Of a stretch of 35,997 nt of DNA, positions 1,696 through 35,997 are shown one piece after another. The translations under genes were made by a program, and so were the position numbers. Within the stretch, counting starts at the first letter, position 1; every line of letters starts with the position of its first letter. The notes under the pieces were generated by a model. It ran no database searches, was not told the DNA's origin, and saw nothing but the letters and a program-made list of their open reading frames with translations. Origin of the DNA: Deltaproteobacteria bacterium (GTDB lineage: Bacteria; Desulfobacterota; Binatia; Binatales; Binataceae); contig JAJZAI010000037.1 in the NCBI GenBank assembly GCA_021799495.1, positions 1-35,997 of the forward strand, read 5' to 3'.

Positions 1696-1704
1696 CCCCA
1701 CCCG

Positions 1705-2607
1705 TCACCACTCGCCGACGAATCTGACCTCCGGCTCCAACCAGACGCCGCTGTTTTCCCTGACGCGATTTCGCGCCATCTCGATCAAGGCCCGCACCTC
1801 GTCCGCGCGCGCGCCGCCCAGGTTCACGATGAAGTTCGCATGCTGGCCGGAGAACGCCGCGCCGCCCATCCGCGCTCCCTTGAGTCCGGCGCTTTCCAGC
1901 AACCGCCCCGCGAATGCGCCGGGCGGGTTTTTGAAGATCGATCCGGCGTTGGGCAAGCCGCGCGGCTGACGCGCGGCGCGCTTCGCACGCAGCTCGGCGA
2001 CGCGCCCGCGCAGAGCGTCGCGATCGCCCCATTCGAGATCAAAATCGACGCGCGTAATCACGAATCCCGCCGGGAGCCTGGTGCGCCGATAGGCGAAGCC
2101 AACTTCGTCCTTCGAGAACGCGCGGATTTCGCCGACTCCGGTGACGCCGTGCACGGCGGTCACGACGCGCGCCATCTCGCCGCCGAAAGCGCCCGCGTTC
2201 ATCACCAATCCGCCGCCAACGCTGCCGGGTATGCCTTCGCCGAATTCGAGACCCGCAAGCCCGCGCTCGACCACTGATTCAACCAGCGCGCCAAACGCCA
2301 TCGCCGCGCCCGCCTCGACCCTGGTCCGCTCGATTCGGCAGTAATTGAAGCTTTCGCCCAGCTTGACCACGAGTCCCCGCACGCCGCGATCGCTGATCAG
2401 AAGATTCGTGCCCGCGCCTAGGCACATCGCGGGCGCGCGATTGCGCGCCGCCGCGGCGAGCGCCGCCGCCAGCTCTTCCGCGGTCGCGACAGTCACGAAC
2501 AGATCGGCCGGCCCGCCGATCTGAAACGACGTTAAATCGGCCAGCGTCCGGCCGCGCCCGACGCGATCGCCAAAACGCGCCGTCAATTCCTGTTCAAGCG
2601 CGCTCAT
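1705..2607 (-). CDS. murB: UDP-N-acetylmuramate dehydrogenase MurB
   Basis: MurB reduces UDP-GlcNAc-enolpyruvate to UDP-MurNAc with NADPH and FAD in the cytoplasm. Visible motifs are FQIGGPADLF and the FAD-site sequence GIPGSVGGGLVMNAG, the catalytic serine in NAGSIFKNP, and GGAAFSGQHANFIVN near the end. The protein is 300 residues from ATG 2607 (SALEQEL...), the usual size. An upstream in-frame start at 2652 would only extend the protein into murC and was not chosen; with ATG 2607 the overlap with murC is 14 bases. The next gene is ftsQ, with no ddl in between. Confidence 0.97.
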   Translation of the reverse strand: MSALEQELTARFGDRVGRGRTLADLTSFQIGGPADLFVTVATAEELAAALAAAARNRAPAMCLGAGTNLLISDRGVRGLVVKLGESFNYCRIERTRVEAGAAMAFGALVESVVERGLAGLEFGEGIPGSVGGGLVMNAGAFGGEMARVVTAVHGVTGVGEIRAFSKDEVGFAYRRTRLPAGFVITRVDFDLEWGDRDALRGRVAELRAKRAARQPRGLPNAGSIFKNPPGAFAGRLLESAGLKGARMGGAAFSGQHANFIVNLGGARADEVRALIEMARNRVRENSGVWLEPEVRFVGEW

Positions 2608-4021
2608 CGGAACTCGCCGCCTCGCCCAACTCCGCCAGCAAACGCTCGCCAATCCGGTAAACGTCGCCGGCGCCGGCGGTGATCACAAGATCGCCTGCCG
2701 CCGTTTCCGCGGCCAGCCGCCGCTCCGGCGCGCTCTCGCCGCCGATAAACCGCACGTCCAGATGGCCGCGCGCGCGCAGCGTTTCGCAAAGCCGCCGCGA
2801 CGTCACGTCGGCAATCGGCTCCTCTCCCGCGGTATAGACGTCGTCGAGATAAAGCACGTCGGCGTCATCGAAAGCCTCCAGAAAGTCGTCGAACAAATCC
2901 CGCAGGCGCGTGTACCGATGCGGCTGAAAGAGCACGACGATCCGGCGCTTGAACGCGGCGCGCGCGGCGGCCAGCGTCGCCCGGACTTCCGCCGGATGAT
3001 GCGCATAGTCGTCGAGCACGAGCCGGCCCGCGGCCTCGCCCTTGATTTCGAAACGGCGCGAGATTCCCGAAAACGACTCGAGCGCGCGCGCCGCCGTCGC
3101 GAATGGAATTCCCAGTTCGAGCGCGACCGCGATCGCCGCCAGTCCGTTCAGCGCGATATGACGGCCCGGCGATGGAATCGCGACCGCGCCCAACGCGACT
3201 CCGCGCCGCAGCACGTCGAAGCGCGTGGCGAGGCCGTCGATAATGATATTTTCGGCGCGCAGGTCCGCGTCGGCGGCGACGCCGTAGGTCACCACCGGCT
3301 TGCGCGCGGAATCGAGCAGTCCGCGAACGTTGACGCTGTCGATACCCAGCACGGCCGCGCCGTAGAACGGCAGCCGGTTGATAAAATTCAGATACGCTTC
3401 GCGCACCCGCTCCATCGCGCCGTAATGGTCCAGATGCTCGGGATCGATATTCGTCACCACCGCGAGCGTGGGCATCAGCAGCAAAAACGACGCGTCGCTC
3501 TCGTCGGCCTCGGCGACCATATACTCGCCATGCCCGAGCCGAACATTGGAGCCGCGCGCGCGGAGATTTCCGCCGATCGCGACCGTGGGATCGAGGCCGG
3601 CTTCTTCCAGAATCAACCCGACCAGCGAGGTCGTCGTGGTCTTGCCATGCGTACCTGCGATCGCAATGCCGACGCGGGCGAGGCGCAGCAATTCGCCCAG
3701 CATCTCGGCGCGCGCGATCACCGGAATCTTCAGCGCGCGGGCGGCGGCGACCTCCGGATTCGAGAATTTCACCGCCGAAGAAATCACGACCGCGTCCAGG
3801 TCGTGGCCGAGATGGCCCGGATGATGGCCGCGCGCGATTTTGACGCCTAGCCGATCCAGCCGCGCGGTCGTGGCGCTTTCGCGCAGGTCGCATCCGCTGA
3901 CCTCGAAGCCGAGGCGCCGGCACAACTCGGCGATTCCGCTCATCCCGGCGCCGCCCACGCCGATAAAATGCAGCCGCCGCGGCCGAGTCATCAGACCCGA
4001 TGCGATTCCTTCCCGACTCAT
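2594..4021 (-). CDS. murC: UDP-N-acetylmuramate--L-alanine ligase MurC
   Basis: MurC adds the first peptide residue, L-Ala, to UDP-MurNAc using ATP. The 475-residue protein has the UDP-binding start FIGVGGAGMSGIAE, the ATP loop GTHGKTTTTS, EADESDASF, TNIDPEHLDHYG, the carbamate-region YAHHPAEVRATL and FQPHRYTR, all standard for MurC. ATG 4021 overlaps the murG stop by four bases (ATGA). A second ATG ten codons in (before TRPRRLHFIG) is an alternative start. Confidence 0.98.
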   Translation of the reverse strand: MSREGIASGLMTRPRRLHFIGVGGAGMSGIAELCRRLGFEVSGCDLRESATTARLDRLGVKIARGHHPGHLGHDLDAVVISSAVKFSNPEVAAARALKIPVIARAEMLGELLRLARVGIAIAGTHGKTTTTSLVGLILEEAGLDPTVAIGGNLRARGSNVRLGHGEYMVAEADESDASFLLLMPTLAVVTNIDPEHLDHYGAMERVREAYLNFINRLPFYGAAVLGIDSVNVRGLLDSARKPVVTYGVAADADLRAENIIIDGLATRFDVLRRGVALGAVAIPSPGRHIALNGLAAIAVALELGIPFATAARALESFSGISRRFEIKGEAAGRLVLDDYAHHPAEVRATLAAARAAFKRRIVVLFQPHRYTRLRDLFDDFLEAFDDADVLYLDDVYTAGEEPIADVTSRRLCETLRARGHLDVRFIGGESAPERRLAAETAAGDLVITAGAGDVYRIGERLLAELGEAASSDERA

Positions 4022-5106
4022 GCGGCCGCGCGTTCCCCTCCGGCAATTTCGAAACAGATACGACTGATGCGCGCGGCGGCGTCGGGATAAGCGGCCGCGC
4101 GCGCCCGCTCGCCCATCGCGATCAGGCGCGACGGTTCGGCGGCAATTTCACGCAGATGGGCAGCAAGGTTCTCTCCCAAGCGATCGTCGTCCATAACAAT
4201 TAAAGCCCCGCCAAGACGCTCGATCACGCGTGCATTTAATTCCTGTTGACGATCACGATGGAACGGATACGGCACGAACAGCGCGGGTCGGCCGGCCAGC
4301 GCCAGTTCCGAAACCGTCATGGCGCCCGCGCGCGCGATTACCAATTCGGCGCGGTCGAGCGCCAACGCCATGTCGTCGATAAATGGCGTCACCTCGGCGG
4401 CAACCCCCAAATCACGATATCGTGCCGCGACCAATTCCGCGTCCGCGCCTCCTGTTTGATGCGTGACTTTGAATTTTATAACATCATTATCAAGAATATT
4501 CAAAGCCTTTAGTACGCCAAGATTAAGTCGATGGGCTCCGCTCGAACCGCCTAAAACAAGGATTTGAATTGGGTAGGAGATTTTCAGAAGCCGCCCCGGG
4601 ATGAACCTCAGGCGCACCGGATTCCCCGTTACGGAGGCCCGGCCGGTCGGGAAACACGCCGCCGTATCGGCAAAGCCTGCGCAAACTTGCCGCGCGAAGC
4701 GCCATAGAATTCTATTCGACAATCCAGGCCGCGTATTTTGCTCCATTAGCAAGAGCGGTATGCGTCCGACGATCGCCGCGACCGCGGTCGGCGCCGATGC
4801 GTACCCACCGGCGCTCACGACGAGGTCGGCGCCGAACGCTTTGAGCGTTTCGCGCGCCCGTCCGATCGCTGCGAAAAATTCGCCCAGCGCGCGCATCCGC
4901 GAGAGCGGATTCTTGCCGCGCAGCCCATGGACGGGAAACAGCTCGTAGCGCAAGCCGCTCTTGGGCAGCCACGACGCCTCGAGGCCATTGCTGGTTCCGA
5001 TATGCAAAATCTCCACGTCGGGCCGCAGGCGGCGCATCGCTTCGCCCAGCGCGACGGCGGGGAACAGATGGCCGCCGGTGCCGCCGCCCGCGATCGCCAC
5101 TTTCAT
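4018..5106 (-). CDS. murG: MurG, lipid II-forming GlcNAc transferase
   Basis: MurG transfers GlcNAc from UDP-GlcNAc onto lipid I at the inner face of the cytoplasmic membrane. The 362-residue protein has GGGTGGHLFPA at the N-terminus, LMEQNTRPGLSNR, the third glycine loop as GGSSGAHRLN (usual GGSQGA), and the sugar-nucleotide site RAGAMTVSELALAGRPALFVPYP. It overlaps ftsW by ATGA. Codons for about residues 182-222 (linker and start of the C-terminal domain) are markedly AT-rich: bases 4441-4560 count to 52 G+C of 120 (43%), far below the flanks, although the reading frame is intact and family motifs continue. Confidence 0.97.
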   Translation of the reverse strand: MKVAIAGGGTGGHLFPAVALGEAMRRLRPDVEILHIGTSNGLEASWLPKSGLRYELFPVHGLRGKNPLSRMRALGEFFAAIGRARETLKAFGADLVVSAGGYASAPTAVAAIVGRIPLLLMEQNTRPGLSNRILWRFARQVCAGFADTAACFPTGRASVTGNPVRLRFIPGRLLKISYPIQILVLGGSSGAHRLNLGVLKALNILDNDVIKFKVTHQTGGADAELVAARYRDLGVAAEVTPFIDDMALALDRAELVIARAGAMTVSELALAGRPALFVPYPFHRDRQQELNARVIERLGGALIVMDDDRLGENLAAHLREIAAEPSRLIAMGERARAAAYPDAAARISRICFEIAGGERAAA

Positions 5107-6251
5107 CGCACCGCCGGTCTGCGCGCGAGCGCAAGCAGCGCGCCGAGCGCCGCCATCGCCATCAAGACGGAAGTTCCGCCGTAGCTGACGAACGGCAGCG
5201 GCAATCCCTTGGTCGGCGCGAGTCCGATCACCACGGCGATATTGACCAGCGCCTGCAACGTGATCATCGTGGTCAGCCCGACCGCGAGCAGACTGGCGAA
5301 CGGCTCCGGCTCTTCATGCGCGATCCGCAGTCCGCGGAACAGAATCGCGCAAAACAGGGCGAACACGGCCAACGCTCCGGCCAGACCGAATTCCTCGGTG
5401 ATTACGGCAAAGACGAAGTCGGTATGCGCCTGCGGAAGATAGAACATTTTCTGCCGGCCAGCGCCGAGTCCGGCGCCCCACCCGCCGCCTTCGCCGAGCG
5501 CGATCAAAGATTGAATGAGCTGGAATCCCGCGCCGCGCGCGGTCCGCCACGGATCGGCGAACGTCACCAGCCGCTTGATTCTATATGGTTTCGCGACCGC
5601 CTGCAGCGCCAGGACCGCGGCCGCACACGCGCCCGTGCGGCCCAAGTCCATCAATCGCGCGCCGCCTGCGAACAGCATCACGAACAGGATCGCCGCAAGC
5701 ATCACCGTGGTCCCGAAATCGGGTTGCTTGAGCACCGGTATCGCAATCAGCCCGACGACGATCATCGCGGGCAACGGGCCGCGCTTGAAGTCCGCCATCC
5801 GCTCCCGCCGGCGCGCGAGATAATCGGCAAGAAAAAATACCACAGCGAACTTCGCCAGTTCCGACGGTTCGGCCAGCAGCGGGCCAAGCCGCACCCAGCG
5901 CCGCGCGCCGCCGCGCGTCACGCCGAGACCGGGAATCCAGATCAGCGCCAGCAGGACGACCGATATGATCATCAGCGGCTTGGTCAAGCGTCTGAGACCG
6001 GCGAGCGAGAGTTGCGAAAGCGCGAACATCACCGCCAACCCGGCCGCGATATGAATCAGATGGAGCTTGAAGAAGTGGAAAGCGTCACCGGTTTTTTCCT
6101 GGCCCAGAAAATAGGTCGTGTTCAGGACCATCAGCAGGCCGAGCGCGACCAGCGTCGCGGCCGGGGCCAATAGCCACGGATCGGGACGCTCGGGCGCGAC
6201 CGCCTCAAAGCGCCCGAACCAGCTCCTGAAATACGCGCCCGCGCTCCGCAT
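5103..6251 (-). CDS. ftsW: FtsW, septal SEDS glycosyltransferase
   Basis: FtsW polymerises lipid II into glycan strands at the septum, together with FtsI. The 382-residue protein is almost wholly hydrophobic with about ten membrane segments, and ends with the SEDS signature APTKGLPLPFVSYGG followed by TSVLMAMAALGALL. AVITEEFGLAGAL, typical of FtsW/RodA, lies upstream of it. Its start at ATG 6251 lies 47 bases inside the end of murD; no later Met occurs before the first helix. Placement in dcw between murD and murG favours FtsW over RodA. Confidence 0.96.
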   Translation of the reverse strand: MRSAGAYFRSWFGRFEAVAPERPDPWLLAPAATLVALGLLMVLNTTYFLGQEKTGDAFHFFKLHLIHIAAGLAVMFALSQLSLAGLRRLTKPLMIISVVLLALIWIPGLGVTRGGARRWVRLGPLLAEPSELAKFAVVFFLADYLARRRERMADFKRGPLPAMIVVGLIAIPVLKQPDFGTTVMLAAILFVMLFAGGARLMDLGRTGACAAAVLALQAVAKPYRIKRLVTFADPWRTARGAGFQLIQSLIALGEGGGWGAGLGAGRQKMFYLPQAHTDFVFAVITEEFGLAGALAVFALFCAILFRGLRIAHEEPEPFASLLAVGLTTMITLQALVNIAVVIGLAPTKGLPLPFVSYGGTSVLMAMAALGALLALARRPAVR

Positions 6252-7530
6252 AATCCCTGAATTGGTCGAAACTCGAGCAGGCCGGCGACAGCAGCACCGT
6301 ATCGCCCGGACACGCCCGCCGCGCCGCGATTCGCACCGCCTCGCCCATCGTCGGGGCCGCTTCGATCGCCGCCGCTCCGGCCAGCGCCGCGCGCATTTTT
6401 TCGCGCGCCGCGCCGTTCAAAATCACCAGCCGCGCCCGTTCCCGGACGGCGGCCCGCAGCGGGGCGTAATCGCCGCCCTTGTCGACGCCGCCGGCAATCA
6501 GGATTACCGGAGGCACCATCGCATGCAGCGCCTCGACCGCGGCCCCGACGTTGGTGCCCTTGGAATCATCGACGTAGCGCACGCCGCGCTTTTCCGCGAC
6601 AAATTCGAGGCGATGCTTCAGTCCCCTGAAATCCGCCAGCGCCGTCTCGATCGCCGCCGGGCCGGCGCCCATCGCCAGCGCCGCGGCCGCGGCCGCCATC
6701 GCATTCGCCAGGTTGTGCCGGCCGCCGAGCGTGAAACGCCGCAAATCAATTTCACCTTCGCCGCCGCGAAACCGCCACGCCAGCGCGCCGCGTCCGGGCC
6801 AGATCGCGTCGCCGGAAGGCGGCGGCGCCTGAAGGCCGAAACTGAAGACGCGGCCCCGCGAGGACGCGGCCAGCCGCCAGACGTTCGGATCGTCGCGATT
6901 CAGCACGGCGCAGTCGGTCGCGTCCTGATTTTCAAAAATCCGCGCCTTGGCGCGGCCGTATTCGGCAAAGTCGCGATAGCGATCGAGATGGTCGTCGGAA
7001 AGATTCAGATGGACCGCGACGCGCGGATGGAACCGCTCGACAAGTTCAAGCTGATAGCTCGACGCCTCGATCACCGCCGCGTCGAACTCGCCAGCCGCCG
7101 CCTCGGCGATCGGCGTGCCGAGATTTCCGCCGACAAAGACGCGCAGGTGCGCCGCGCGCAGCATCGCGCCGATCATCATGGTCACGGTGCTCTTGCCGTT
7201 GGTTCCGGTGACGGCGGCGATCGGCGCGGCGAAGAAGCGCGCGCCAAATTCCAGTTCGCCAATTAGCGGAATTCCGGCCGCGACCGCCGCGCGCATCAGC
7301 GGCGACGTTGGCGGCACGCCCGGGCTCGCGATCGCCAAATCTACGCCGCCAAGCGACGCCGGAGCCTCCGCGCCGAGCCGCAGTTCGCCGTCGGGAAGCC
7401 CTTCCCGCGCGATATCGGCACGCGCGTCGGCCAACACCAGCCGCGCGCCGCACGCGGCTGCAAGGCGCGCGGCGGCGCGGCCGCTCACGCCCAGCCCAAT
7501 CACCAGCACGCGTTTTCCCGCAAGTTCCAT
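6205..7530 (-). CDS. murD: UDP-MurNAc-L-alanine--D-glutamate ligase MurD
   Basis: MurD adds D-Glu to UDP-MurNAc-L-Ala. Motifs: VIGLGVSGRAAARL (UDP site), ASPGVPP, VTGTNGKSTVTMMIG (ATP loop), GNLGTPI, EASSYQLE, LNLSDDHLDRY, GLKHRLEFVAEKRGVRYVDD followed by SKGTN, IAGGVDKGGDY and LSPACSSFDQF. Start ATG 7530 gives 441 residues and leaves 14 bases after the mraY stop; an ORF start at 7632 would read through the end of mraY and was rejected. Confidence 0.98.
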   Translation of the reverse strand: MELAGKRVLVIGLGVSGRAAARLAAACGARLVLADARADIAREGLPDGELRLGAEAPASLGGVDLAIASPGVPPTSPLMRAAVAAGIPLIGELEFGARFFAAPIAAVTGTNGKSTVTMMIGAMLRAAHLRVFVGGNLGTPIAEAAAGEFDAAVIEASSYQLELVERFHPRVAVHLNLSDDHLDRYRDFAEYGRAKARIFENQDATDCAVLNRDDPNVWRLAASSRGRVFSFGLQAPPPSGDAIWPGRGALAWRFRGGEGEIDLRRFTLGGRHNLANAMAAAAAALAMGAGPAAIETALADFRGLKHRLEFVAEKRGVRYVDDSKGTNVGAAVEALHAMVPPVILIAGGVDKGGDYAPLRAAVRERARLVILNGAAREKMRAALAGAAAIEAAPTMGEAVRIAARRACPGDTVLLSPACSSFDQFRDYAERGRVFQELVRAL

Positions 7531-7544
7531 CGCCAGGCGCGCCG

Positions 7545-8624
7545 CTAGCGCAGTTTGAGCGTGCTGATCGCCACCAGCGCGCATACGATCGAGATAATCC
7601 AGAAGCGCGTCACCACCACCGTTTCCGGCCATCCGCCGAGCTCAAAATGATGATGCAGCGGGGCCATCCGGAAAATCCGCCGATGGGTCATCTTGTAATA
7701 GTAGCGCTGCATGATCACCGATACCGCTTCGAGCACGAACACTCCGCCCGCGATCGGCAAGACCAATTCCTGTTTGGCGAGCACCGCGACCGCGCCGAGC
7801 GCGCCGCCGAGCGAAAGCGCGCCGACATCGCCCATCATCATCGAAGCGGGATAGGCGTTATACCAGAGGAAGCCGAGCGACGCGGCGATCAGCGCGGCGC
7901 AAAAGATCGCGAGTTCGCCCGAGCCCTCGACGTGCGGCACGTCCAGATAGCGCGCGAACTTGATATTGCCCGCGACGTAGGTGAATAGCCAATAGCAAAA
8001 GCCGGTGGTCATCACCGGGCCGATCGCAAGGCCGTCGAGGCCGTCGGTCAGATTGACCGCATTCGAGCAGCCGACGATCACCAGCATCGCGAACGGCGTG
8101 TACAGCCACCAATGCAGGTTCGGATGGAGCCGCTTCAGGAACGGAAACGTCAGGTGCGTATCGAAGCGCAGGAATGCGAACAGCGTAATGGCCGCGACGA
8201 ATGCGCAGGCGAATTGCCAGAACAATTTCTGCGGGCCGCTCAGTCCCATTCCCCTGCCGCGCCTGAGCTTGAGATAATCGTCGCAGAAACCGATCACGCC
8301 GAAGCCGACCATCACGAACAGCGCAATCCATACGTATGGATCGCCCGGATCGGCGAGCAGCAGCGTCGCCGCCAGCGACGACGCCAGAATCAGCAGGCCG
8401 CCCATCGTCGGCGTGCCGGCTTTCTTCTGATGCGCCGCGGGAACTTCCTCGCGGATCGTCTGCCCGATATGCGCGGCGCGAAAGCGCTGGATCAACAGCG
8501 GTCCCAGCGTCAGCGACAACGCCAGCGACAGCAGTCCCGCCAGCACCGAGCGGAAGGTTTCGTAGCGTAGGACATTGAGTACCGGGTAACGCGTATGAAG
8601 GGAAAATAAAGCCAGATAGAGCAT
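7545..8624 (-). CDS. mraY: Phospho-MurNAc-pentapeptide transferase MraY
   Basis: MraY makes lipid I by moving phospho-MurNAc-pentapeptide onto undecaprenyl phosphate. The 359-residue integral membrane protein has KKAGTPTMGGLLI, the aspartate-rich FCDDYLK, NLTDGLDGLAIG, MMGDVGALSLGG and HHHFELGGWPE, covering the known Mg2+ and nucleotide sites. A purine-rich GGGG sits just before the ATG. Upstream of this gene, where murF is expected, is a 358-base stretch with no recognised gene. Confidence 0.98.
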   Translation of the reverse strand: MLYLALFSLHTRYPVLNVLRYETFRSVLAGLLSLALSLTLGPLLIQRFRAAHIGQTIREEVPAAHQKKAGTPTMGGLLILASSLAATLLLADPGDPYVWIALFVMVGFGVIGFCDDYLKLRRGRGMGLSGPQKLFWQFACAFVAAITLFAFLRFDTHLTFPFLKRLHPNLHWWLYTPFAMLVIVGCSNAVNLTDGLDGLAIGPVMTTGFCYWLFTYVAGNIKFARYLDVPHVEGSGELAIFCAALIAASLGFLWYNAYPASMMMGDVGALSLGGALGAVAVLAKQELVLPIAGGVFVLEAVSVIMQRYYYKMTHRRIFRMAPLHHHFELGGWPETVVVTRFWIISIVCALVAISTLKLR

Positions 8625-8982
8625 TGCCCCAGTTAGACTCTCCGCTTATCGGCCGCCGCGCAAGCATCCCGCAGCGCCGCGCCGCCGCTGACCCAACCGT
8701 CCTCGTCCGCGCCTCTGAATACGCCGGGTTCATCGTCGCCGCGCAACCGCGCTCCGACAATCCGAGGCAAGCCTTATGCCGCCATCCGTCCGCCACCGCA
8801 TTCCCGCCCATCGGCGCGAAGGCTTCCCCAAGCTTGTCGTTCGCTGCCGGAGCGACCTCCCTCACCCGCAGTCCGTGCGCCCTCGGGCGCGCCGATTCCG
8901 GGCATGCGTCCGCCATCCCGCGCGCAAGCCGCGGCAACCGCCCATCGAGCAAAATTTTTTCCCGCCATTCAGCGCGCCGCCG
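8625..8982. other. 358 bp gap at the usual murF position, no recognisable gene
   Basis: Between the murE stop and the mraY start, where many bacteria have murF (about 1.35 kb), I find only short open frames. One minus-strand frame runs from 8952 through the gap into mraY out of frame; another is 64 codons (8774-8968). Neither shows the MurF motifs (the DSR...GDLF N-terminal pattern, a TGS/TGTxGKT ATP loop or the LGDMxELG C-terminal motif). No hairpin terminator with a T tract is visible. It may be the scar of a deletion, a relic too eroded to recognise, or an assembly artefact. Confidence 0.6.
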
Positions 8983-10527
8983 TCAATTTCGCGACGGCGG
9001 CTCCGTCTCGCCCATCGAGGCGGCAATTTCCCGCACCACGACGCGGTCGTCGAAATCCAGCCGCCGGCCTGCGATGAGCTGATAATCTTCGTGACCCTTG
9101 CCGGCGACCACAACGATGTCGCCGGGCCGCGCGATCCTGAGCGCGAGCGCGATCGCGCCACGCCGGTCGGGTTCGACGACGTAGCCGCGTTCGCCATGCG
9201 CCGCGCGCGCCTGGCTGATGCGCTCGAGGCCGCGTTCGGCGAGGCCCGCCTCGACCTGGGCGATAATCGCGAGCGGATCTTCGCTGCGCGGATTGTCGGA
9301 GGTCAGCACCGCGGTATCCGCGAGCCGCCCGGCGATCGCTCCCATGATTGGCCGCTTGCCGCGATCGCGATCGCCGCCGCATCCGAACACGCAAATCAGC
9401 CGGCGCGGCTCCAGCGCGCGCAACGCGCCCAAAACCGCCTCCAACGCGTCGGGTTTGTGGGCGTAATCCACCAGCACTTTGACGCCCTGCGGTCCCGCGA
9501 CCGCCTCCAGCCTGCCGGGGGCCCCCGGACACCGCCGCACCCCCTCCGCCACCGCCTCAGGTTCGATGCCGAGGGCCGCCGACACGGCGGAGGCCCCGAG
9601 AATGTTCAACAGATTGATCTCGCCAAGCATCGGCGAACTTATTTCGCGCCGCCGGCCCATCAGGTTGAGCGTCGCGCGGATTCCATCGACGTCCGTGCGA
9701 TAGCTTTCCGGATAGACGTCGAGCGCGCGATCGAGGCCGAAGCTGACCTTGCCGCCGCGGCATGCCGCCAGCACGCGCGCGCCGTAAGGATCGTCGCCGC
9801 GCGCAACCGCGACCGCGCCGCCGGGCCGGGCGCTGTGCGGCAAAATCTCTGTGAAGAGCCGCAGCTTGGCGTCGAAGTAGGCTTCGATCGTGCCGTGGTA
9901 ATCGAGATGGTCGCGGCCGAGATTGGTGAACAGGCAGGCCGCGAACGACAACTGATCGGCGCGGCGCTCGGCGATTCCGATCGACGATATTTCGGCGGCG
10001 GCGGCGGTCACGCCCTCGCCATCCATCGCCGCCAGCGCCGATTCGAAATCGATCGATTCAGGCGTGGTCAGGCCGCTCTGGAGTTTTCGGCCGCGCGCGA
10101 ATATGCCGAGCGTTCCGATCAGGCCGCAGGGACGACCGGCCGCCTCGAAGATCGACGCCAGCAGCCAGGTTGAAGTGGTCTTGCCGCTGGTGCCGGTGAC
10201 TCCGATCAGATCGAGCTTGCGGCTGGGCGCGCCAAAAAAACGCGACGCGGCGATCGCCATCACCGCGCGCGGCTCGGCGCATTCGAGAATGGTAAACGCG
10301 GGGCGCGCTTCCTCAACCGCCCCCTCGCGCGCCGCCACCGCGCGCGCCCCGCGCCGCAATGCTTCGCCAATATGCGCGCGCCTTGCGGCCTGATCGCGCG
10401 CGGTCGCAAAAAACAGATCGCCGGAGCGGACCTTGCGCGAATCGTAGGCAAGGCCCGAGATTTCCGCGTCCAGCCCGCCCTGGATTCGCGCCACCGGCGC
10501 GCCGGCGATCAATTCCGCGAGTCTCAT
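8983..10527 (-). CDS. murE: MurE, meso-diaminopimelate-adding ligase
   Basis: MurE adds the third residue of the stem peptide. The 514-residue protein has an N-terminal Mur domain (YDSRKVRSGDLFFA), the ATP loop GVTGTSGKTTS, TTPESID, TNLGRDHLDYHGT, a binding domain with CPGAPGRLEAV and VLVDYAHKPDALE, and the pocket motif SDNPRSEDP. DNPR in this pocket is the established mark of meso-diaminopimelate ligases, so the wall is predicted to be DAP-type. The usual EVSSHAL is EISSIGI here, losing the histidine, and the loop has Ser in place of the common Asn (TGTNGKT). ATG 10527 overlaps the ftsI stop by four bases. Confidence 0.97.
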   Translation of the reverse strand: MRLAELIAGAPVARIQGGLDAEISGLAYDSRKVRSGDLFFATARDQAARRAHIGEALRRGARAVAAREGAVEEARPAFTILECAEPRAVMAIAASRFFGAPSRKLDLIGVTGTSGKTTSTWLLASIFEAAGRPCGLIGTLGIFARGRKLQSGLTTPESIDFESALAAMDGEGVTAAAAEISSIGIAERRADQLSFAACLFTNLGRDHLDYHGTIEAYFDAKLRLFTEILPHSARPGGAVAVARGDDPYGARVLAACRGGKVSFGLDRALDVYPESYRTDVDGIRATLNLMGRRREISSPMLGEINLLNILGASAVSAALGIEPEAVAEGVRRCPGAPGRLEAVAGPQGVKVLVDYAHKPDALEAVLGALRALEPRRLICVFGCGGDRDRGKRPIMGAIAGRLADTAVLTSDNPRSEDPLAIIAQVEAGLAERGLERISQARAAHGERGYVVEPDRRGAIALALRIARPGDIVVVAGKGHEDYQLIAGRRLDFDDRVVVREIAASMGETEPPSRN

Positions 10528-12590
10528 CGCCGCATCCGCCGCGCAAAGCGCGATACGAACCGGTTTGCGCGCCGCGCCGGATGCGCCCGCTGCGGCAAGT
10601 CCGCGCCGGCGACGCCGGCCGGATCGTCCGCCAGGGTCAATCGCACGCTGGCGACGGCGCTGTTCCGGCCGGGAACGGGCGATTGCGCGACGACATAACC
10701 ATGGCCCTCGATCTCCAGAGTCAGGCCGCGCGCGCGGGCCAGCGCCAGCGCGTCGCGCATGCTCGCGCCGAGGAAATCGGGAATGCCGCCGCCTTGTTCC
10801 GGCACGAGTTCCGCGGGCGAATCCGCGACTGGCGCCGCTACCGGCGCCGGAGCATCGTCGGCGCCGAAAGGCAGCAGGCTCGCGGTGTCGTACGAGGGCG
10901 GCGCCTGCGGCGGCGCCACGCCCAGCCGGTCGAGCGCCGTCGCGGCGATCTCGCTGAACACGGGCGCCGCGTACAATCCGCCGAAATGGCCGTGCGCAAC
11001 GTCGTAGAGCACCACCAAAATCACCAGCCGCGGATCGTCGGCCGGCACGAATCCGACAAAAGACGCGACCAGGCGCCCCTGGTAATAACCGCCGGTCGCG
11101 GGATTCACCATCTGCGCCGTTCCGGTCTTGCCGGCCACGGTGAAATCAGCCACTTGCGCGAGCCGCGCGGTGCCGTCTTTGCCGCTGACCACATTGCGCA
11201 GCAGCAGGTTCATCTGATGCGCGACGGCGGGCGGAATCGCGCGCCTGACCGCCTGCGGCTGATGACTCAGGATTTCGTCGCCCGCGCTGTCGTATGCGGC
11301 TTTGACGACATACGGACGCATCAGCATGCCGCCGTTGGCGATCGCGGCGTAGGCGACCGCAAGCTGGATCGGAGTGACCGCGACGCCCTGGCCGAAACCG
11401 TGGTCGGCGAGCTCGATCGGCTTCCATTGCGACGGCGGCCGGATAATGCCGGCCGCTTCGCCGGGCAGATCGATACCGGTGCGCTGGCCGAGGCCGAAAG
11501 CCGCCATCCCCGCGCCGAAGCGCCGCGCGCCCAGCGCGAGGGCGATCTTCGCCGCGCCGATATTGGACGAGACTTCGATAATCCCGCCAAGGTTCATCCA
11601 TCCGTTACGATCGTCGTCGTGTATCAGGCGGCCTGCGAAGCGCCACTGGCCGTCCTCGCAATAAATCATCCGCGAAGGCCCGATCACGTGGTCGGCGAGC
11701 GCGATCGACCCCAGCAGGCCCTTCATCGTCGAGCCCGGCTCGAAGGCGTCCTGCACCGCCGTATCGTGCAGGCGCTCGTCGCCCTTCACGCCCGCGCCGG
11801 CGGCGTTGGCCAGCGCCAGAATTTCGCCGGTGAACGGATCGAGCACGATCGCGGTTCCGCGCCGCGCCCCGCTTTTCGCGACCTCGGCGGCAAGGTAATG
11901 CTCGGCCGTGGCCTGAATTGACGAATCGATGGTCAATTCCAGCCGCGCCCCCGGTTCGGCCGCGCGCAGCGCGAGCGGCGAATCGAGAATCGGATGGCCG
12001 AGCGCGTCATGGTAAAATTCGAGCTCGACCGGCTGGCCGCGCACCAGCCGATCGTATTGCAGTTCCACCCCGGAGAGCCCCTGGCCATCCATCCCAGCCA
12101 ACCCTGTCACCGCCGCCGCCAGGTTGCTCTCCGGGTAATATCTTTTGTACTCGCTGATCGCGCCGACTCCGTCGAGGCCAAGCCCGGCGACGACGCGGGC
12201 GCGGGCGGGCGGCAGATGGCGCGCCAGCCATACGAACGGCTCGCCGCGATCCAGCCGCGCTTCCAGCTCCGCGTCCGTGAGGCCGAGCGCCGCCGCCAGC
12301 CGAGCGCGATCCGCGGCGGTGGAATGACGCATCAGCCGCCGCGGCCGCGCATAAATCGAGCGCGTCTCGGCCGACAACGCGAGCGGCGCGCCGTTGCGAT
12401 CGACGATCGGCCCACGCACCGGCGCCAGCGTCATGACCGCGGTATGTTCGCTGCGCGCGATTCCCGCCAGCCGCGGACCGTCAACCAGCACGACTATCGC
12501 CAGACGCGCCGCCGCCACCGCGAAGAGCGTCGCGAGCGCCACGGTAAGCACGCCAATCCGCATCCGGCGCCGCCGAAACGGCTCGTTCAC
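10524..12590 (-). CDS. ftsI: FtsI, septal transpeptidase (PBP) with C-terminal PASTA domain
   Basis: FtsI cross-links septal peptidoglycan in the periplasm. The 688-residue class B PBP has one N-terminal membrane helix (about residues 11-36), a dimerisation region beginning APVRGPIVDRNG, and the three catalytic motifs: S287-T-M-K290, SSN at 341-343 and KTG at 488-490. A single PASTA-like domain follows at about 598-652 (IPDFLGASMRDALALARARG), then an Arg-rich tail. PASTA in an FtsI of Gram-negative type is common in delta-group bacteria. The GTG at 12590 overlaps the ftsL stop (GTGA); an ATG at 12563 is a possible shorter start. Confidence 0.96.
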   Translation of the reverse strand: MNEPFRRRRMRIGVLTVALATLFAVAAARLAIVVLVDGPRLAGIARSEHTAVMTLAPVRGPIVDRNGAPLALSAETRSIYARPRRLMRHSTAADRARLAAALGLTDAELEARLDRGEPFVWLARHLPPARARVVAGLGLDGVGAISEYKRYYPESNLAAAVTGLAGMDGQGLSGVELQYDRLVRGQPVELEFYHDALGHPILDSPLALRAAEPGARLELTIDSSIQATAEHYLAAEVAKSGARRGTAIVLDPFTGEILALANAAGAGVKGDERLHDTAVQDAFEPGSTMKGLLGSIALADHVIGPSRMIYCEDGQWRFAGRLIHDDDRNGWMNLGGIIEVSSNIGAAKIALALGARRFGAGMAAFGLGQRTGIDLPGEAAGIIRPPSQWKPIELADHGFGQGVAVTPIQLAVAYAAIANGGMLMRPYVVKAAYDSAGDEILSHQPQAVRRAIPPAVAHQMNLLLRNVVSGKDGTARLAQVADFTVAGKTGTAQMVNPATGGYYQGRLVASFVGFVPADDPRLVILVVLYDVAHGHFGGLYAAPVFSEIAATALDRLGVAPPQAPPSYDTASLLPFGADDAPAPVAAPVADSPAELVPEQGGGIPDFLGASMRDALALARARGLTLEIEGHGYVVAQSPVPGRNSAVASVRLTLADDPAGVAGADLPQRAHPARRANRFVSRFARRMRR

Positions 12591-12877
12591 GGCATCACCA
12601 CCACTTGCGCCGGCGAGGCGGGCGCAAGGCCGTACCTGGGCGCGAGCGCGCGCAGGCGCGGACGCGATTCAAGTTCCGCCAATTCAAGCCGCAGCTGCTG
12701 ATTGCGGTTTTCGAGATCGCGAATCCGCAGCCGCAGCGTGGACAGGCGGTAACCCTCCTGCGTTATCTCGAGCCGGATCATCAGCGTGACAAAGCCGGCC
12801 ACGACGATCGCGGCGGCAAGGATCGCGGACGCGAGCCGCGACGGATGCGCCGACGGCCTTGTGCGGCGGCGGCTCAT
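12587..12877 (-). CDS. ftsL: FtsL, divisome bitopic protein
   Basis: FtsL forms the FtsQLB complex that switches on FtsWI. This 96-residue protein has a basic N-terminal tail (SRRRTRPSAH), one membrane helix (LASAILAAAIVVAGFVTLM) and a periplasmic coiled coil (LSTLRLRIRDLENRNQQL, LRLELAELESRPRLRALA), followed by the YGLAPASPAQVV end typical of FtsL. Identification rests on architecture and position between rsmH and ftsI, since FtsL diverges quickly. ATG 12877 overlaps the rsmH stop by ATGA; a GTG at 12886 also exists but lacks that coupling. Confidence 0.93.
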   Translation of the reverse strand: MSRRRTRPSAHPSRLASAILAAAIVVAGFVTLMIRLEITQEGYRLSTLRLRIRDLENRNQQLRLELAELESRPRLRALAPRYGLAPASPAQVVVMP

Positions 12878-13794
12878 GACGCGCACCGCTCGAGGCAGCG
12901 CAGACGCGCGCTGCGCGCCCGCGGATTCGACGCGACCTCTTCTGGCGACGGCCGCAGCGCCTTGCGCGTCACGAGCGAAAAGCCTCCGCCCTGCGCCAGT
13001 TCGCGAAAACGCCGCTTGACCGGCCGGTCTTCCAGCGAATGGTAAGCGAGGATTACGAGCCGGCCGCCGGCGGCTAAACGATGCGGGGCGCGGTCGAGCA
13101 AGGCGTTGAGGCTTTCAAGTTCGCGATTCACGGCGATGCGAAGCGCCTGGAAGACGCGCGTCGCCGGATTGATTCCGCCGACCCGAACATGGCCGGCGAC
13201 GCCCTCGACCAGCAGGCGCAGGTCGGTGGTGGTTTCGAGCGGACGGCGCCGCCGGGCCGCGACGATCGCGCGCGCAATCCGCCGGGAGCCGCGCTCTTCG
13301 CCGTATTCGTAAAAGATGCGGGCGAGTTCCTCTTCGCTTTCCTCGTTGACGAGATCGTAGGCGGTCAATGGTTCGCGCCGATCCATCCGCATATCGAGCG
13401 GCCCGTCGAACCTGAAACTGAAACCGCGCGCGGGATCGTCGAGCGCGTAGCTGGACATCCCGAGATCGGCCAGAACCGCGCCGACGCAAGGGATGCCGCA
13501 TTCGTCGAGCACTTCGTCGAGCGAACGGAAGTCGGCCTGCCGCAGCGTCACGCGCGAGCCGAAACGGGCAAGATTGTCCGCAGCGGCCTCGAGCGCGGCG
13601 GAGTCGCGATCGAGGCCGAGCAGATGCGCGTTGGTCGCCTCGAGAATCGCCGCCGCGTGGCCGCCAAGCCCGACCGTCGCGTCGACGATGACGAGCGGGT
13701 TCGGAGCGCGGACGAGCGCCGTCGCCTCATCCACCATCACCGCCACATGCTGGCGGCTCGCCGCGCTCCGCCCCTTGTCTTCGCCCAGGCGCAT
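12874..13794 (-). CDS. rsmH: 16S rRNA (cytosine1402-N4)-methyltransferase RsmH
   Basis: RsmH (formerly MraW) methylates C1402 in the 16S decoding centre with S-adenosylmethionine. The sequence has HVAVMVDEA, the SAM loop DATVGLGGHAAAIL, LGLDRD, DLGMSSYALDDPARGFSF, GGINPATRVFQALRIAVN and YHSLEDRPVKRRF, all characteristic. From ATG 13794 it has 306 residues. A TTG three codons earlier (13803) is nearer to the TAAGG at the mraZ stop and cannot be ruled out. It lies just behind mraZ as in most dcw clusters. Confidence 0.97.
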   Translation of the reverse strand: MRLGEDKGRSAASRQHVAVMVDEATALVRAPNPLVIVDATVGLGGHAAAILEATNAHLLGLDRDSAALEAAADNLARFGSRVTLRQADFRSLDEVLDECGIPCVGAVLADLGMSSYALDDPARGFSFRFDGPLDMRMDRREPLTAYDLVNEESEEELARIFYEYGEERGSRRIARAIVAARRRRPLETTTDLRLLVEGVAGHVRVGGINPATRVFQALRIAVNRELESLNALLDRAPHRLAAGGRLVILAYHSLEDRPVKRRFRELAQGGGFSLVTRKALRPSPEEVASNPRARSARLRCLERCAS

Positions 13795-13808
13795 GGCCCC
13801 CAAAAACC

Positions 13809-14267
13809 TTAAAGTACGATGCCGATCTTGTTCAGGAATTCCGGATCCTGAACCAATTGCTCCTCAGCCGCATGGAGAATCTGACCAAGCCGCGCCCGCT
13901 CCCATAGCTGGAACCGGTTGTGCTTGGCCGAAAACGTCACCTCGTGCCCAAGTCCCGCGAAATCGCGCAGCTTGGGCGGAATCAGAATGCGGCCTTGCCG
14001 GTCCACCGGAACTTCATAGGCGCCGCCGACGTAAAACGTTTCAAACAACTGGGATGCGCGGTCGCTCGAACGGCGCTCCTCAAACTTCCCTATTACCCGC
14101 TCCCATTCCGCCGGAGGATAAAGATCGAGACATCGCTGCGAGTCTTCGATGAAATTGGTGATATAAAGACGGTCGTGGTTCTGACGCTGCAAGACCTCGC
14201 GAAAACGCGCCGGGATGCTTACCCTCCCTTTTTCGTCGATCGTGTGGTCGTAGCGACCGCTGAACAC
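13809..14267 (-). CDS. mraZ: Transcriptional regulator MraZ (GTG start)
   Basis: MraZ is a ring-forming DNA-binding protein with two AbrB/SpoVT-like halves that represses the dcw operon through TGGGN boxes. Both half-motifs are clear: YDHTIDEKGRVSIPARFRE and YEVPVDRQGRILIPPKLR, with LWERARL in the C-terminal part. The start is placed at GTG 14267 because the family begins with (M)F.GRY and because AAGGGG lies 7 bases before it; the frame is open further upstream to 14300, but that would translate the operator itself. The protein has 152 residues. First gene of the cluster; the MraZ boxes lie directly upstream. Confidence 0.96.
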   Translation of the reverse strand: MFSGRYDHTIDEKGRVSIPARFREVLQRQNHDRLYITNFIEDSQRCLDLYPPAEWERVIGKFEERRSSDRASQLFETFYVGGAYEVPVDRQGRILIPPKLRDFAGLGHEVTFSAKHNRFQLWERARLGQILHAAEEQLVQDPEFLNKIGIVL

Positions 14268-14577: not shown

Positions 14578-14877
14578 ATGACAACAATGGAAGACGAAGC
14601 GAAAAAGACCGCAGTTCAAGAATCAATCGAACCGAGTACGCATCCGGCGGACGAACCCTTGGTGATACGGCAACTTACGCCGCTCGGCGTTGCGCACTAT
14701 ATCTTGCACGGTATCGGGGTCACGCTCGGGATGACCCTGCTTTGGTCGATGGAGGCCGTGCGAAATTCTTATTTTCGCATGCTCGACCGCATGAACATCA
14801 AGGCGCGTACGCGCCGGGCGAGCGCATTCCCACCGGGTCCGGCGTCCAGCCGCAACCTCGCGCACGCGCGACGCTGA
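14578..14877 (+). CDS. Small putative membrane-associated protein, function unknown
   Basis: A 99-residue ORF divergent from mraZ. The first 35 residues are acidic and polar; residues about 38-65 form one hydrophobic stretch (YILHGIGVTLGMTLLWSM) followed by an amphipathic basic helix (EAVRNSYFRMLDRMNIKART), then a Pro/Arg-rich tail. I do not recognise a family. Support: promoter-like boxes just upstream, a start near an AT-rich regulatory region, and a helix pattern unlike the usual antisense shadow ORFs. The first ATG (14578) or the second (14587) may be used. The opposite strand also has an open frame of 93 codons, which looks spurious. Confidence 0.5.
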   Translation: MTTMEDEAKKTAVQESIEPSTHPADEPLVIRQLTPLGVAHYILHGIGVTLGMTLLWSMEAVRNSYFRMLDRMNIKARTRRASAFPPGPASSRNLAHARR

Positions 14878-14958
14878 ACGATCGGCGATCGTTCTCTTCC
14901 ACACGCCGATTGCGGTTTAATCGGCATCGTCAGTTCGCGCGGATTCAAATGAATCCGC
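14876..14958. repeat. Three consecutive inverted repeats
   Basis: Within 83 bases are three perfect dyads: GAACGATCG-G-CGATCGTTC (14876-14894), GCCGATT-7-AATCGGC (14905-14925) and GCGGATTCA-AA-TGAATCCGC (14939-14958). They fill the space between the end of the small ORF and the end of the ATPase gene, which converge here. The middle one can form a 7 bp hairpin; the outer two have almost no loop and look more like protein-binding palindromes. None is followed by a T tract, so they are not standard intrinsic terminators. Confidence 0.75.
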
Positions 14959-14979: not shown

Positions 14980-17439
14980 CTATTGCCGATGAGGGCCGCG
15001 CGGCGTTTTCGCCGGCCGATTGGCGCCGCTGAGCTTGCTATCGTGCAGCGACGTTGACGGCAAGGCCCGCATCACTCGCCGCGGCGGTCCAACCTCCGAT
15101 GCGGTTTCAAAATCGTCCTCGCCGGCGGCGTCATCGATAAGACGGGCAAGGTAACGCGCCAGTTTTTCGTCCAGCACGCGCACCAGCGCATCGGTTTGAG
15201 CGGCCTGGATAATCTTGAGAAAACCTTCCAGCCGATGATTGTGGTCGTGCGCGCGAATCAGCCGGTAAATGGCGTCGCGCGACAGCGCCGCAAGCTTCGA
15301 CTGCAGCGCGCGGCCCAAACGATCGAACAGATCGGCCAACTCTTCGCGCGGCGAATTCGCGCCCAACGCGAAGTCGCATCGCGGGCAGCACGGCGTGGTT
15401 TCGGGCGCGAGCTGTTCGGCCCCGTCGCATCGACGCACCCGCTCTTCGAGCGGCGCCAGCAGCGCCGCCAGCGCCGCGCCTTCGGCCGGCCCGAGCGACC
15501 CAATCGCATTCAGTCGGCGCAGCGCTTCGAGGCGCCGCCGGACGTCGTCAAGCAGCGGCGCGAGCCGATCCATCTCGATGCGCCACTGTTCGTGCGCCAC
15601 GCGGTAATGCTGAACGTAAGTCCACTTGAATTTCTGAAAGCGCGCTTCGAGCGTATCAAGGCTCCGGCCCGCGCCGGCCAGCACCGCCGGATTCACAGCG
15701 ATCGCCAGCAACTGGCACTCCGTTTCCAGCAGGGCCAGCGCGCGATCGCGCGACGGATCGTCGCCCAGTCCGGCGTGCATCCGCGTCGCTTCCAGGTACT
15801 GCCGCATCATCCGCAGCCGCGGCGCCGCGCTGGCGATGAGGGCCAGCTTTTCGTAAGCCGCGATCGCTCCAAGCGCGCTCTGCCGGCGGACGTCGTCGGC
15901 GCCCGCGGCGACGATTCCGGCGGCGCCGGATTCTGCCAGTTCAATAAAGCGCTCGAAGGCCGCGCGATGGTCGTCGGACATGCGGGCGTTGGCGCCGCGC
16001 ATCGCGGCCGCCAACAAATCACGGCTGCGATGCGCCCCTTCGAGCGCGCTCGCGATCGCCTCTTCAAGGCGTATCAACCGCGACTCCAGTTCCGACTTGT
16101 CGCGGGCTTCGCCAAGCGTCGAATCGAAACGGCGAATCAGCGGCAGGGCGGCGTTGAAAGCCGCCACTTCGGGCACGCCGGCGCCGCGCGGATCGAACGA
16201 CGCCGCGCGGCGCGCGGCGTCGTAAACGATCGCTCCGCGGCTTCGTGACGCCAGCGCGGCTAGGGATTCCGCGAGCGTCATATTCTCAGCGCCGCGCTCA
16301 TCAACGTTGAATTCGCGCGGCAGGCGCGATCGGAGTTCGTTTATTTCCAGGGCGGCGCCATCCGCGGCAAGATGATTCGCCACGAGCGTTTTGACGGCCA
16401 TGCGCAGCGTCCGATCGTCGCGCCCAAGCCCGCCCGCGGCGAGCTCGGCGATTTGAACCGCCGCGCGCCCGGCTTCGCCGAGCCTTTCCCGCGCCGCGTG
16501 CTCGATCGCGGGCAGCGCCATCAACTCGGCGGGCGTGATCGGCCGCGGCGCGTCGCGCCGTTCCATCCAGGCTTCGAGCGCCGCGCGCGCCATTCGGGCG
16601 AGGCCGGCCACCCCATGCGCCGGATCGCGCAGGGCCGCAATCAGATCGGCCGCGGCGGGATGGAACGGATAGATGTCCGACGGAGCGAAAGCTCCGAGGC
16701 CGGCCTTGCGATAGAGCGTCTCGGCCGCGCGCGCTCCCGCATCTTCGAGCCGGCGCGCGCGGCCGATTGCGACGCGCATCTCCTCCGACGGGCCGGGCGC
16801 GACTTCGAAGCCGCGGGCGGCGCGCGGCGGCGCGCCGCGGCCGGCGGCGATCGCTATCAACCGCAACGCGCGCGAAGATTTTGCGAGTTCCGCGAGCGCC
16901 GCCAAAGTCCCGTGCGCCGGACCCGCGTCGTCGCCGCCGAAATCGATCGCCAGCGTTATGCCGCGCACTCCTTGGCGCCGCGCGCTATCGATCGCGATCG
17001 CCAGCGCTTCCGCGCCGGCCATCCGCCGCCACAGGGCCGCGCCGCGATTGTCTCCAGCCAACTCATGCGCGATCAGTTCAAGAATTTTCCGATCGATCGC
17101 GGCGGGCGCGAGTCCGCCGTCGAGATCGAGTTTGAGCGCCAGATGGCGTCCCGCGTCGGCAACGATCGCGCCGGCTCTCTCCGCCAGCGCCATCGCATAC
17201 GTAAGGAAATGGGTTTTGCCGGCGCCGCGCGGACCGTGAATCCAGAACAGCGCTCCGAATGGACTTACAAGTTGACTATTGATCGCTTCCCATGCGGCGC
17301 TTGCGCCGCAGGTCAGCACATAGCATCCGATCAATTCCTCGCGCGCCGGTCCATCGAGGGCGATTCGATCAGGCGCTTCGACGCCAAGCGCGATCAGCTC
17401 ATCGGGTGTCAGTTCTTTCAACTTCCGCTGGACCCGCAT
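14980..17439 (-). CDS. Large P-loop ATPase, DUF6079/BREX (PglY/BrxC)-like
   Basis: An 819-residue protein with Walker A GPRGAGKT at residues 69-76 (preceded by FWIH), a Walker B-like strand ITLAIDFGGDD at 161-171, an all-helical middle, and a Cys cluster at about 670-689 (CDGAEQ...CCPRC) like a small zinc ribbon. YPFHPAAADLIAALRD in the AAA lid region and the Cys pair recall the DUF6079 proteins and the BREX ATPases PglY/BrxC, which are normally about 1200 residues; this is judged by eye and unverified. It is a single gene with no methyltransferase, PglZ or nuclease beside it. AAGAGAAG before ATG 17439 is a fair ribosome binding site. Function is unknown; defence or chromosome-associated roles are possible. 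Confidence 0.6.
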   Translation of the reverse strand: MRVQRKLKELTPDELIALGVEAPDRIALDGPAREELIGCYVLTCGASAAWEAINSQLVSPFGALFWIHGPRGAGKTHFLTYAMALAERAGAIVADAGRHLALKLDLDGGLAPAAIDRKILELIAHELAGDNRGAALWRRMAGAEALAIAIDSARRQGVRGITLAIDFGGDDAGPAHGTLAALAELAKSSRALRLIAIAAGRGAPPRAARGFEVAPGPSEEMRVAIGRARRLEDAGARAAETLYRKAGLGAFAPSDIYPFHPAAADLIAALRDPAHGVAGLARMARAALEAWMERRDAPRPITPAELMALPAIEHAARERLGEAGRAAVQIAELAAGGLGRDDRTLRMAVKTLVANHLAADGAALEINELRSRLPREFNVDERGAENMTLAESLAALASRSRGAIVYDAARRAASFDPRGAGVPEVAAFNAALPLIRRFDSTLGEARDKSELESRLIRLEEAIASALEGAHRSRDLLAAAMRGANARMSDDHRAAFERFIELAESGAAGIVAAGADDVRRQSALGAIAAYEKLALIASAAPRLRMMRQYLEATRMHAGLGDDPSRDRALALLETECQLLAIAVNPAVLAGAGRSLDTLEARFQKFKWTYVQHYRVAHEQWRIEMDRLAPLLDDVRRRLEALRRLNAIGSLGPAEGAALAALLAPLEERVRRCDGAEQLAPETTPCCPRCDFALGANSPREELADLFDRLGRALQSKLAALSRDAIYRLIRAHDHNHRLEGFLKIIQAAQTDALVRVLDEKLARYLARLIDDAAGEDDFETASEVGPPRRVMRALPSTSLHDSKLSGANRPAKTPRGPHRQ

Positions 17440-35280: not shown

Positions 35281-35285
35281 TGTTC

Positions 35286-35402
35286 CCCGGCCGCGTCCTA
35301 CTCTCCCGTGACGCCGTCGGTCACAGTACCATCGGCGCTGAAGGGCTTAACTGCCGTGTTCGGGATGGGAACGGGTGTTGCCCCTTCGCTATGGCGACCG
35401 GA
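35286..35402 (-). rRNA. rrf: 5S ribosomal RNA
   Basis: The reverse complement contains CACCCGTTCCCATCCCGAAC, then ACGGCAGTTAAGCCCTTCAG, CGCCGATGGTACTG and GGGAGAGTAGGACGC, the universal 5S core. About 117 bases; ends are set by the terminal stem (CCGGTCGC with GCGGCCGG) and may be off by a few bases. Confidence 0.95.
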
Positions 35403-35596
35403 AACTTGCCGCGCGCCACGAAGCGCGGCGCGCCGAATTTCCGACTAACTGATAGTAGGGTATTTTCAAGCGTGGCCGTCCAAACCATGCATGCAATCAG
35501 ACCTCGGCCGGGCGCAATCGGCTAGCGATATGAAATCCGAAAGCGTCCTCGGCCAGTATTTCCGCCGCGCCGATCGCTCGGCGATTGGAAATACAT
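35403..35596 (-). other. 23S-5S rRNA spacer, no tRNA
   Basis: About 194 bases between the 23S and 5S genes. No tRNA was found; tRNAs in bacterial rRNA operons are more usual between 16S and 23S. Confidence 0.7.

Positions 35597-35997
<401 letters not shown>

Follow-up and report, generated by a model that had tools for sequence, protein, structure and literature searches.

A short, lone BrxC-like ATPase of Binataceae without the Walker B glutamate, tentatively a domesticated scaffold

Introduction

BrxC, also named PglY, is an AAA+ scaffold ATPase of the DUF6079 family and a central, incompletely understood part of BREX. The domain description used here follows PMC12839542, in which BrxC has a length of 1200–1300 residues and carries an alpha+beta domain and a second winged helix. 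For Acinetobacter BrxC, PMC13326643 reports that the alpha+beta domain (551–746) and the second winged helix support DNA binding, that a piece comprising residues 1–551 bound no DNA although longer pieces did, that dimerisation is promoted by the last 80 residues, and that the Walker B substitution E269Q stabilises the ATP-dependent dimer. No description of a short stand-alone BrxC was found in the literature searched; in PMC9009780, which names BrxC and BREX, the term 'dominant negative' occurs in the reference list alone.

Here we analyse one gene in a window of DNA from the family Binataceae (the window being the whole stretch that was analysed, 35,997 nucleotides), which was recognised from the ORF list, Pfam, PADLOC and a structure match:

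14980..17439, minus strand: mini-BrxC, a stand-alone BrxC/DUF6079-like protein of 819 residues

The protein is a shortened relative of BrxC/PglY. Its novelty lies in being a BrxC-like protein that is conserved, short and alone and lacks the catalytic glutamate; within a known protein family it is an uncommon variant, though one that can be understood. Our tentative reading, to which we give a probability of a little under one half (about 0.48), is that mini-BrxC is a domesticated short BrxC acting as a host scaffold and not as a phage-restriction system that is sufficient on its own. A family of this kind, in which evolution has left the ATP-gated head, a single winged helix and the C-terminus, with neither catalytic Glu nor partners, would let those parts of BrxC be tested alone, and mini-BrxC would exemplify a defence ATPase that has become a resident gene.

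Results

Gene and family assignment

The open reading frame starts with ATG, its GC content is 0.76 at third positions against 0.53 at position 2, and it is conserved across Binataceae. Mini-BrxC is under purifying selection, with dN/dS values of 0.217, 0.261, 0.393 and 0.276 in four comparisons with relatives, which are higher than those of most of the 11 neighbours compared, yet far below 1 (the comparison with L031 gave 1.47 for the gene at 20136, which was taken for a mis-framed pairing and left out). By composition, conservation and selection, the frame of the 819-residue protein proposed in the preliminary description of this DNA is therefore a real coding sequence, on the minus strand. 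The AT-rich promoter region that it was said to possess is AT-rich indeed (the upstream gap of 259 nt has 53% AT against approximately 35% for the window), but a scan of the region returned no promoter-like site.

Profile searches place the C-terminal part of the protein close to DUF6079. The Pfam model reaches 22.3 bits in the single protein against a cut-off of 23 (E 2.7e-5) and 23.2 bits, just above that cut-off, in a six-frame search of the genome; six mini-BrxCs exceed the cut-off, and for 17 of the 21 aligned members a match with an E of at most 0.01 is obtained. The PADLOC model of BrxC also matches the C-terminal part of the 819-residue protein (E 3.1e-5), and 12 of the 21 members at E 0.01 or better, while some members weakly match the PADLOC models SspC (3/21) and MkoC (2/21).

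The N-terminal part is placed by structure. An AlphaFold2 model (mean pLDDT 78.4, pTM 0.54, 12 sequences) was aligned with 964 chains, the matches listed lying mainly in its N-terminal part. Among the best 50 of the 964, the first two are Acinetobacter BrxC chains (9zll_C, Z 17.6, rmsd 4.5 over 381 residues; 9zdx_C, Z 16.9, rmsd 4.2 over 377 residues), and ORC/Cdc6 proteins rank below both at Z 14.4 and less. The 50 Foldseek matches listed comprised ORC, Cdc6 and other proteins and no BrxC, which surfaced on re-alignment, and the family profile, when compared with the sequences of solved structures, met BrxC chains only at E 1.1 and 1.6 (9zll, 9zn5). In profile comparisons, the C-terminal 334 columns align with P0002, a full-length DUF6079 protein of genome G002, with a probability of 98.9, and the N-terminal profiles align over 383 columns with a probability of 98.0. 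Since a search with the family profile at E 1e-3 does not reach L159, the type I BrxC also encoded by G002, the sequence link runs via P0002-like DUF6079 proteins. The link to BrxC is thus made by structure for the AAA+ domain and first winged helix, the combination of ORC/Cdc6-type AAA+ and winged helix that characterises the BrxC fold being present, and by sequence for the C-terminal helices with their Cys knuckle. The earlier view of a BREX/DUF6079-like ATPase shorter than BrxC is borne out. Membership of a known housekeeping AAA+ family, which would have spoken against that view, was considered and rejected, as the sole matches of this kind, to generic AAA, Hda and RecA, are weak.

The protein is divided as follows:

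16435..17439, minus strand: ORC/Cdc6-type AAA+ domain, residues ~1–335 (AlphaFold2 model; the VIA-align matches listed fall mainly here)
17212..17235, minus strand: Walker A GPRGAGKT, residues 69–76 (K75, T76 and H77 invariant in 21/21)
16939..16953, minus strand: degenerate Walker B LAIDF, residues 163–167 (Asp retained, catalytic Glu absent)
16180..16434, minus strand: putative winged-helix region, residues ~336–420 (modelled as helices with two strands)
15430..16152, minus strand: long helical, coiled-coil-like region, residues ~430–670 (AlphaFold2 model)
15376..15429, minus strand: three-Cys knuckle C671...C685xxC688 (invariant in 21/21 aligned members)
15118..15348, minus strand: conserved C-terminal helices, residues 698–774 (sequence match to the C-terminus of P0002; helices in the model)

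In the structure alignment, BrxC chains follow mini-BrxC as far as residue 415–417, and the name that we give to residues ~336–420 is a reading of the model by position. The C-terminal Cys cluster seen earlier is real, C671, C685 and C688 being present in every aligned member, and a similar C...CxxC occurs in the full-length proteins L050, L164 and L165. Residues 698–774 probably correspond to the dimerisation end of BrxC, in a part of the model where confidence becomes low past about residue 730.

Active site and missing middle

Both Walker motifs had been claimed for this protein. Walker A (GPRGAGKTH) is intact, and of Walker B only half is present: D166 is invariant in 21/21 mini-BrxCs, but position 167 is occupied by F (15 members), L (4) or C (2) and never by Glu. 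By comparison, all eight comparators read have Asp-Glu (L159, L050, L161, L164, L165, L166, L167 and L168), including L161, whose N-terminus sits in a separate frame, and L168, whose LIAIDE was read by eye outside the Walker pattern search. As assigned from our alignment, the sensor-1 position is Gly in 14/21 members, an Arg-finger-like Arg is found in 8/21 and a sensor-2-like Arg in 19/21.

With full-length L050, the 1323-residue reading of P0002, the family profile aligns as three segments in co-linear order, at E 4.3e-50 within a small set of candidate ORFs. Profile positions 168–362 and 397–789 correspond to L050 residues 259–478 and 917–1306, and L050 residues ~478–917 (~440) have no counterpart in mini-BrxC. 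By its position in the sequence, the missing part would be the alpha+beta domain and second winged helix of BrxC, that is, its DNA-binding part. Mini-BrxC therefore keeps both ends of BrxC and Walker A and is without the middle and the Walker B glutamate, and neither feature of BrxC as it occurs in BREX, full length with both middle domains and a Walker B Asp-Glu, is found in it.

With BrxC (PglY) of type I BREX (PDB 9zll, 9zdx; PMC13326643), mini-BrxC has in common the ORC/Cdc6-type AAA+ head, Walker A, the first winged helix and a helical C-terminal end; it differs in having 819 rather than 1200–1300 residues, in lacking the alpha+beta domain, second winged helix and Walker B Glu, and in that no BREX neighbours were found. 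P0002 has co-linear ends and a similar C...CxxC knuckle, but it is 1320 residues long, its Walker B reads VVDEF, and its neighbours are, in our reading, transposase-like and recombinase-like. BrxB of BREX, an inactive STAND NTPase according to PMC12839542, is likewise an ATPase relative without a working site, but it belongs to a different protein family and has no match in the genome of mini-BrxC. DUF499 ATPases of BREX-related systems have a similar N-terminal layout of AAA+ plus winged helix (same source), whereas the C-terminus of mini-BrxC is of DUF6079 type, and the neighbours scanned include neither a helicase nor an N6-methyltransferase.

Genomic neighbourhood

Neighbours were recounted in 29 genomes, with G075 left out. 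The position beside the dcw cluster noticed earlier is common, as mraZ lies within 2 kb of mini-BrxC in 19 of the 22 genomes that could be judged (7 further genomes are cut too short); since there is no mraZ within 8–10 kb in G012, G026 and G031, the chromosomal place is not wholly fixed. The adjoining mraZ, and the fact that mini-BrxC lies on the same strand as dcw in the window, could point to a partner of cell-wall synthesis or division. We consider this very unlikely: a convergent gene separates mini-BrxC from mraZ, so that the two do not form one simple operon, three genomes have mini-BrxC away from mraZ, and genomes without mini-BrxC retain the mraZ-dcw genes, where read. The upstream side also argues against such a role, a CoA transferase gene being present in 18/29 genomes at a distance of 0.2–4 kb and missing from the 5.8–8.3 kb upstream in 8 genomes. 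The seven upstream neighbours in the window (CoA transferase, acyl-CoA dehydrogenase, DUF4838, Mrp-type ATPase, glycosyltransferase, ABC transporter and one without match) are mostly household genes, and a conserved operon partner upstream was rejected in view of lineage-specific inserts.

Two features lie downstream:

14578..14877, plus strand: conserved convergent small ORF of 99 residues, adjoining the ATPase gene and not specific to it
14876–14894, 14905–14925 and 14939–14958, no strand assigned: three hairpins (sequence, folding, alignment)

The small ORF adjoins mini-BrxC in all 25 genomes with more than 1 kb of downstream DNA. It is present, however, in 40/41 Binataceae genomes, among them each of the 9 that gave no match to the ATPase; in three of the genomes that lack mini-BrxC (G014, G007, G022) the CoA transferase gene meets the small ORF directly, and in another (G008) the DUF4838 gene does so. 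The hairpins sit in the 102-nt gap between the two convergent genes and recur in the nearest relative (L031) and partly in the second (L032), the folds covering the three hairpins of the window; in other relatives with a gap, its sequence and length (29–255 nt) differ. The palindrome array described at the 3' end thus exists as three small hairpins, conserved just in nearest relatives, and they probably act as a terminator between convergent genes, although a terminator scan of the region found 5 against 5.5 expected from shuffles and did not flag them. A specific partnership of the ATPase with either the small ORF or the palindromes, which the preliminary description had proposed to look for, is accordingly rejected on the genome counts and the gap comparison.

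The small ORF itself is uncharacterised and commoner in Binataceae than the ATPase; it has no Pfam or PADLOC match and, in our reading, one hydrophobic stretch.

Distribution and history

With a threshold of E 1e-8, mini-BrxC is present, at least in part, in 32/41 Binataceae genomes, and a relative in 0/107 other genomes of the class. In a phylum sample of 395 genomes there are seven matches outside Binataceae, all of them open frames of 1072–1714 residues. A contig scan by exact peptide patterns returned 14 loci (Candidatus Binataceae, Candidatus Binatus soli, Deltaproteobacteria bacterium and uncultured proteobacterium/bacterium), and searches of plasmids, phages and viral contigs found no relative.

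The 32 carriers comprise 24 near full-length genes, 4 contig-end pieces (G001, G005, G011, G032), 2 frames broken in two (G020, G030) and 2 short remnants (G025, G034), the latter at the same place as the gene elsewhere. Five of the 24 have one stop inside the match, each at the end of the gene, and one (G028) runs off the end of its contig and continues on a second one. Among the nine genomes with no match is G029, whose contig stops at the small ORF, so that its absence call is not established. We read mini-BrxC as a resident gene; it is found mostly at one chromosomal place in one bacterial family and absent or broken in some members.

A quick tree of concatenated proteins, covering 29 of the 41 genomes with a weak backbone and G029 not counted, requires 5 changes of presence and absence; the change count cannot separate gain from loss, and we read the changes as losses because of the common place and the remnants. 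The gene tree reproduces close groups of the species tree, and in a tree with full-length comparators, where branches are very long, mini-BrxCs form one group against P0002 in 2% of bootstraps. Taken together, mini-BrxC appears to be vertically inherited and dispensable.

The remnants, the broken frames and the nine genomes without a match might suggest that mini-BrxC is left over, without function, from an ancestral BREX locus. This is highly improbable: near full-length frames occur in 24/41 genomes, K75, T76, H77, D166 and the Cys triad do not vary even among members as low as 32% identity, and the selection data, with dN/dS well below 1, speak strongly against it.

BREX and defence context

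The genome of mini-BrxC (98% complete, 89 contigs) was searched with models of PglZ, BrxB, DUF6079 and Eco57I, and contained no match to PglZ or BrxB and no second DUF6079 match. Two Eco57I-type methyltransferases were found, both on other contigs; they score best with type II models (1.8e-46 and 8e-141), and PglX models match the same two enzymes far more weakly (E 7.8e-15 and 4.7e-5). Among the ten neighbours scanned with PADLOC there is no PglX match, and the sole matches (mad2/mad3/mad8) fall on MraW and the ABC transporter, mad2 being matched by MraW, which is a methyltransferase; these are taken as unspecific. The absence of PglZ, PglX and BrxB beside the gene, as described earlier, therefore holds in the neighbour scans, and genome-wide for PglZ and BrxB. 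A defence island was considered as a setting and rejected, given the household neighbours and these PADLOC matches. Across the 41 Binataceae genomes, PglZ occurs in 2 (G002, G032) and BrxB in 2 (G002, G017).

The suggestion of a single-gene or minimal system is not supported, in view of the household neighbours, the place beside mraZ in most genomes that could be judged, the rarity of PglZ and BrxB and the lack of mobile relatives. The opposite outcome, which the preliminary description had envisaged as a scattered neighbourhood with no link to defence islands, holds in its second part, no such link having been found; the neighbourhood is mostly constant and not scattered.

Mini-BrxC might still be a defence component whose partners are encoded elsewhere in the genome, as in a split or reduced BREX-like system. 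BrxC ancestry, the absences in part of Binataceae, evolution faster than most neighbours and the two methyltransferases would agree with this, and yet we regard it as unlikely: PglZ and BrxB are rare in the family and missing from this genome, both methyltransferases resemble type II enzymes, PADLOC found only unspecific matches beside the gene, and Vibrio BrxC needed its Walker B Glu for defence according to PMC11580459.

The same source bears on a further possibility. When Vibrio BrxC with a Walker B Glu-to-Ala change was present beside wild type, plaquing was restored and BREX defence abolished, and the mutant still interacts with BrxC. Mini-BrxC, in which the corresponding Glu is absent from all 21 members and the AAA+ and C-terminal ends are kept, could be a natural dominant-negative decoy that, locked with ATP and without a grip on DNA, enters the dimers or rings of incoming BrxC and puts the BREX of mobile elements out of action. 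If true, it would be a natural version of the laboratory mutant, poisoning mobile-element BREX, and the scarcity of PglZ in Binataceae would be in keeping with it. We nevertheless hold this to be quite unlikely, as G002 carries mini-BrxC together with a BREX locus comprising BrxL, PglZ, BrxB and BrxC, G032 has both PglZ and pieces of mini-BrxC, and similarity to type I BrxC lies below profile match, which makes mixed dimers doubtful.

Discussion

Of three conceivable roles (host scaffold, work with a defence partner encoded at another locus, disturbance of foreign BREX), the first is our choice, and a defence claim for mini-BrxC is not supported. The scaffold role is modelled on the anatomy of BrxC and would work as follows. 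Mini-BrxC may bind ATP without efficient turnover; it would dimerise through its C-terminal end, with the AAA+ heads closed by ATP, and would not grip DNA as BrxC does. With Walker A, the C-terminal end and the first winged helix kept, and the Glu and DNA-binding middle gone, the heads should close and stay closed, although a catalytic residue elsewhere could restore hydrolysis. The protein would then be a nucleotide-gated scaffold for host proteins encoded elsewhere. Its absence from some genomes and its evolution, faster than that of most neighbours, would also be compatible with a role in defence.

Some further observations were made on the loci compared. In G002, which belongs to the same genus, L159 carries at 435–13933 a type I-like BREX locus with BrxL, PglZ, methyltransferase-like ORFs and a BrxC of 1187 residues, and the BrxB match lies just beyond it. 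P0002 is the second, full-length DUF6079 protein of this genome and occupies positions 111–4082 of L050, close to a contig end; besides the transposase-like and recombinase-like ORFs, it adjoins a 289-residue ORF without Pfam or PADLOC match. In G032, a BrxC-like protein at the contig end (L168, 14761–17886, 1041 residues read) shares its contig with the PglZ match, a possible BREX-related locus. In L034, mini-BrxC and the small ORF are separated by 255 nt (12458–12712), and this gap contains an inverted repeat (GGAACCTCTGC / GCAGAGGTTCC) that may be a small repeat element. A 5S rRNA gene and part of a 23S rRNA gene lie on the minus strand at 35285–35997, where the window ends on the right.
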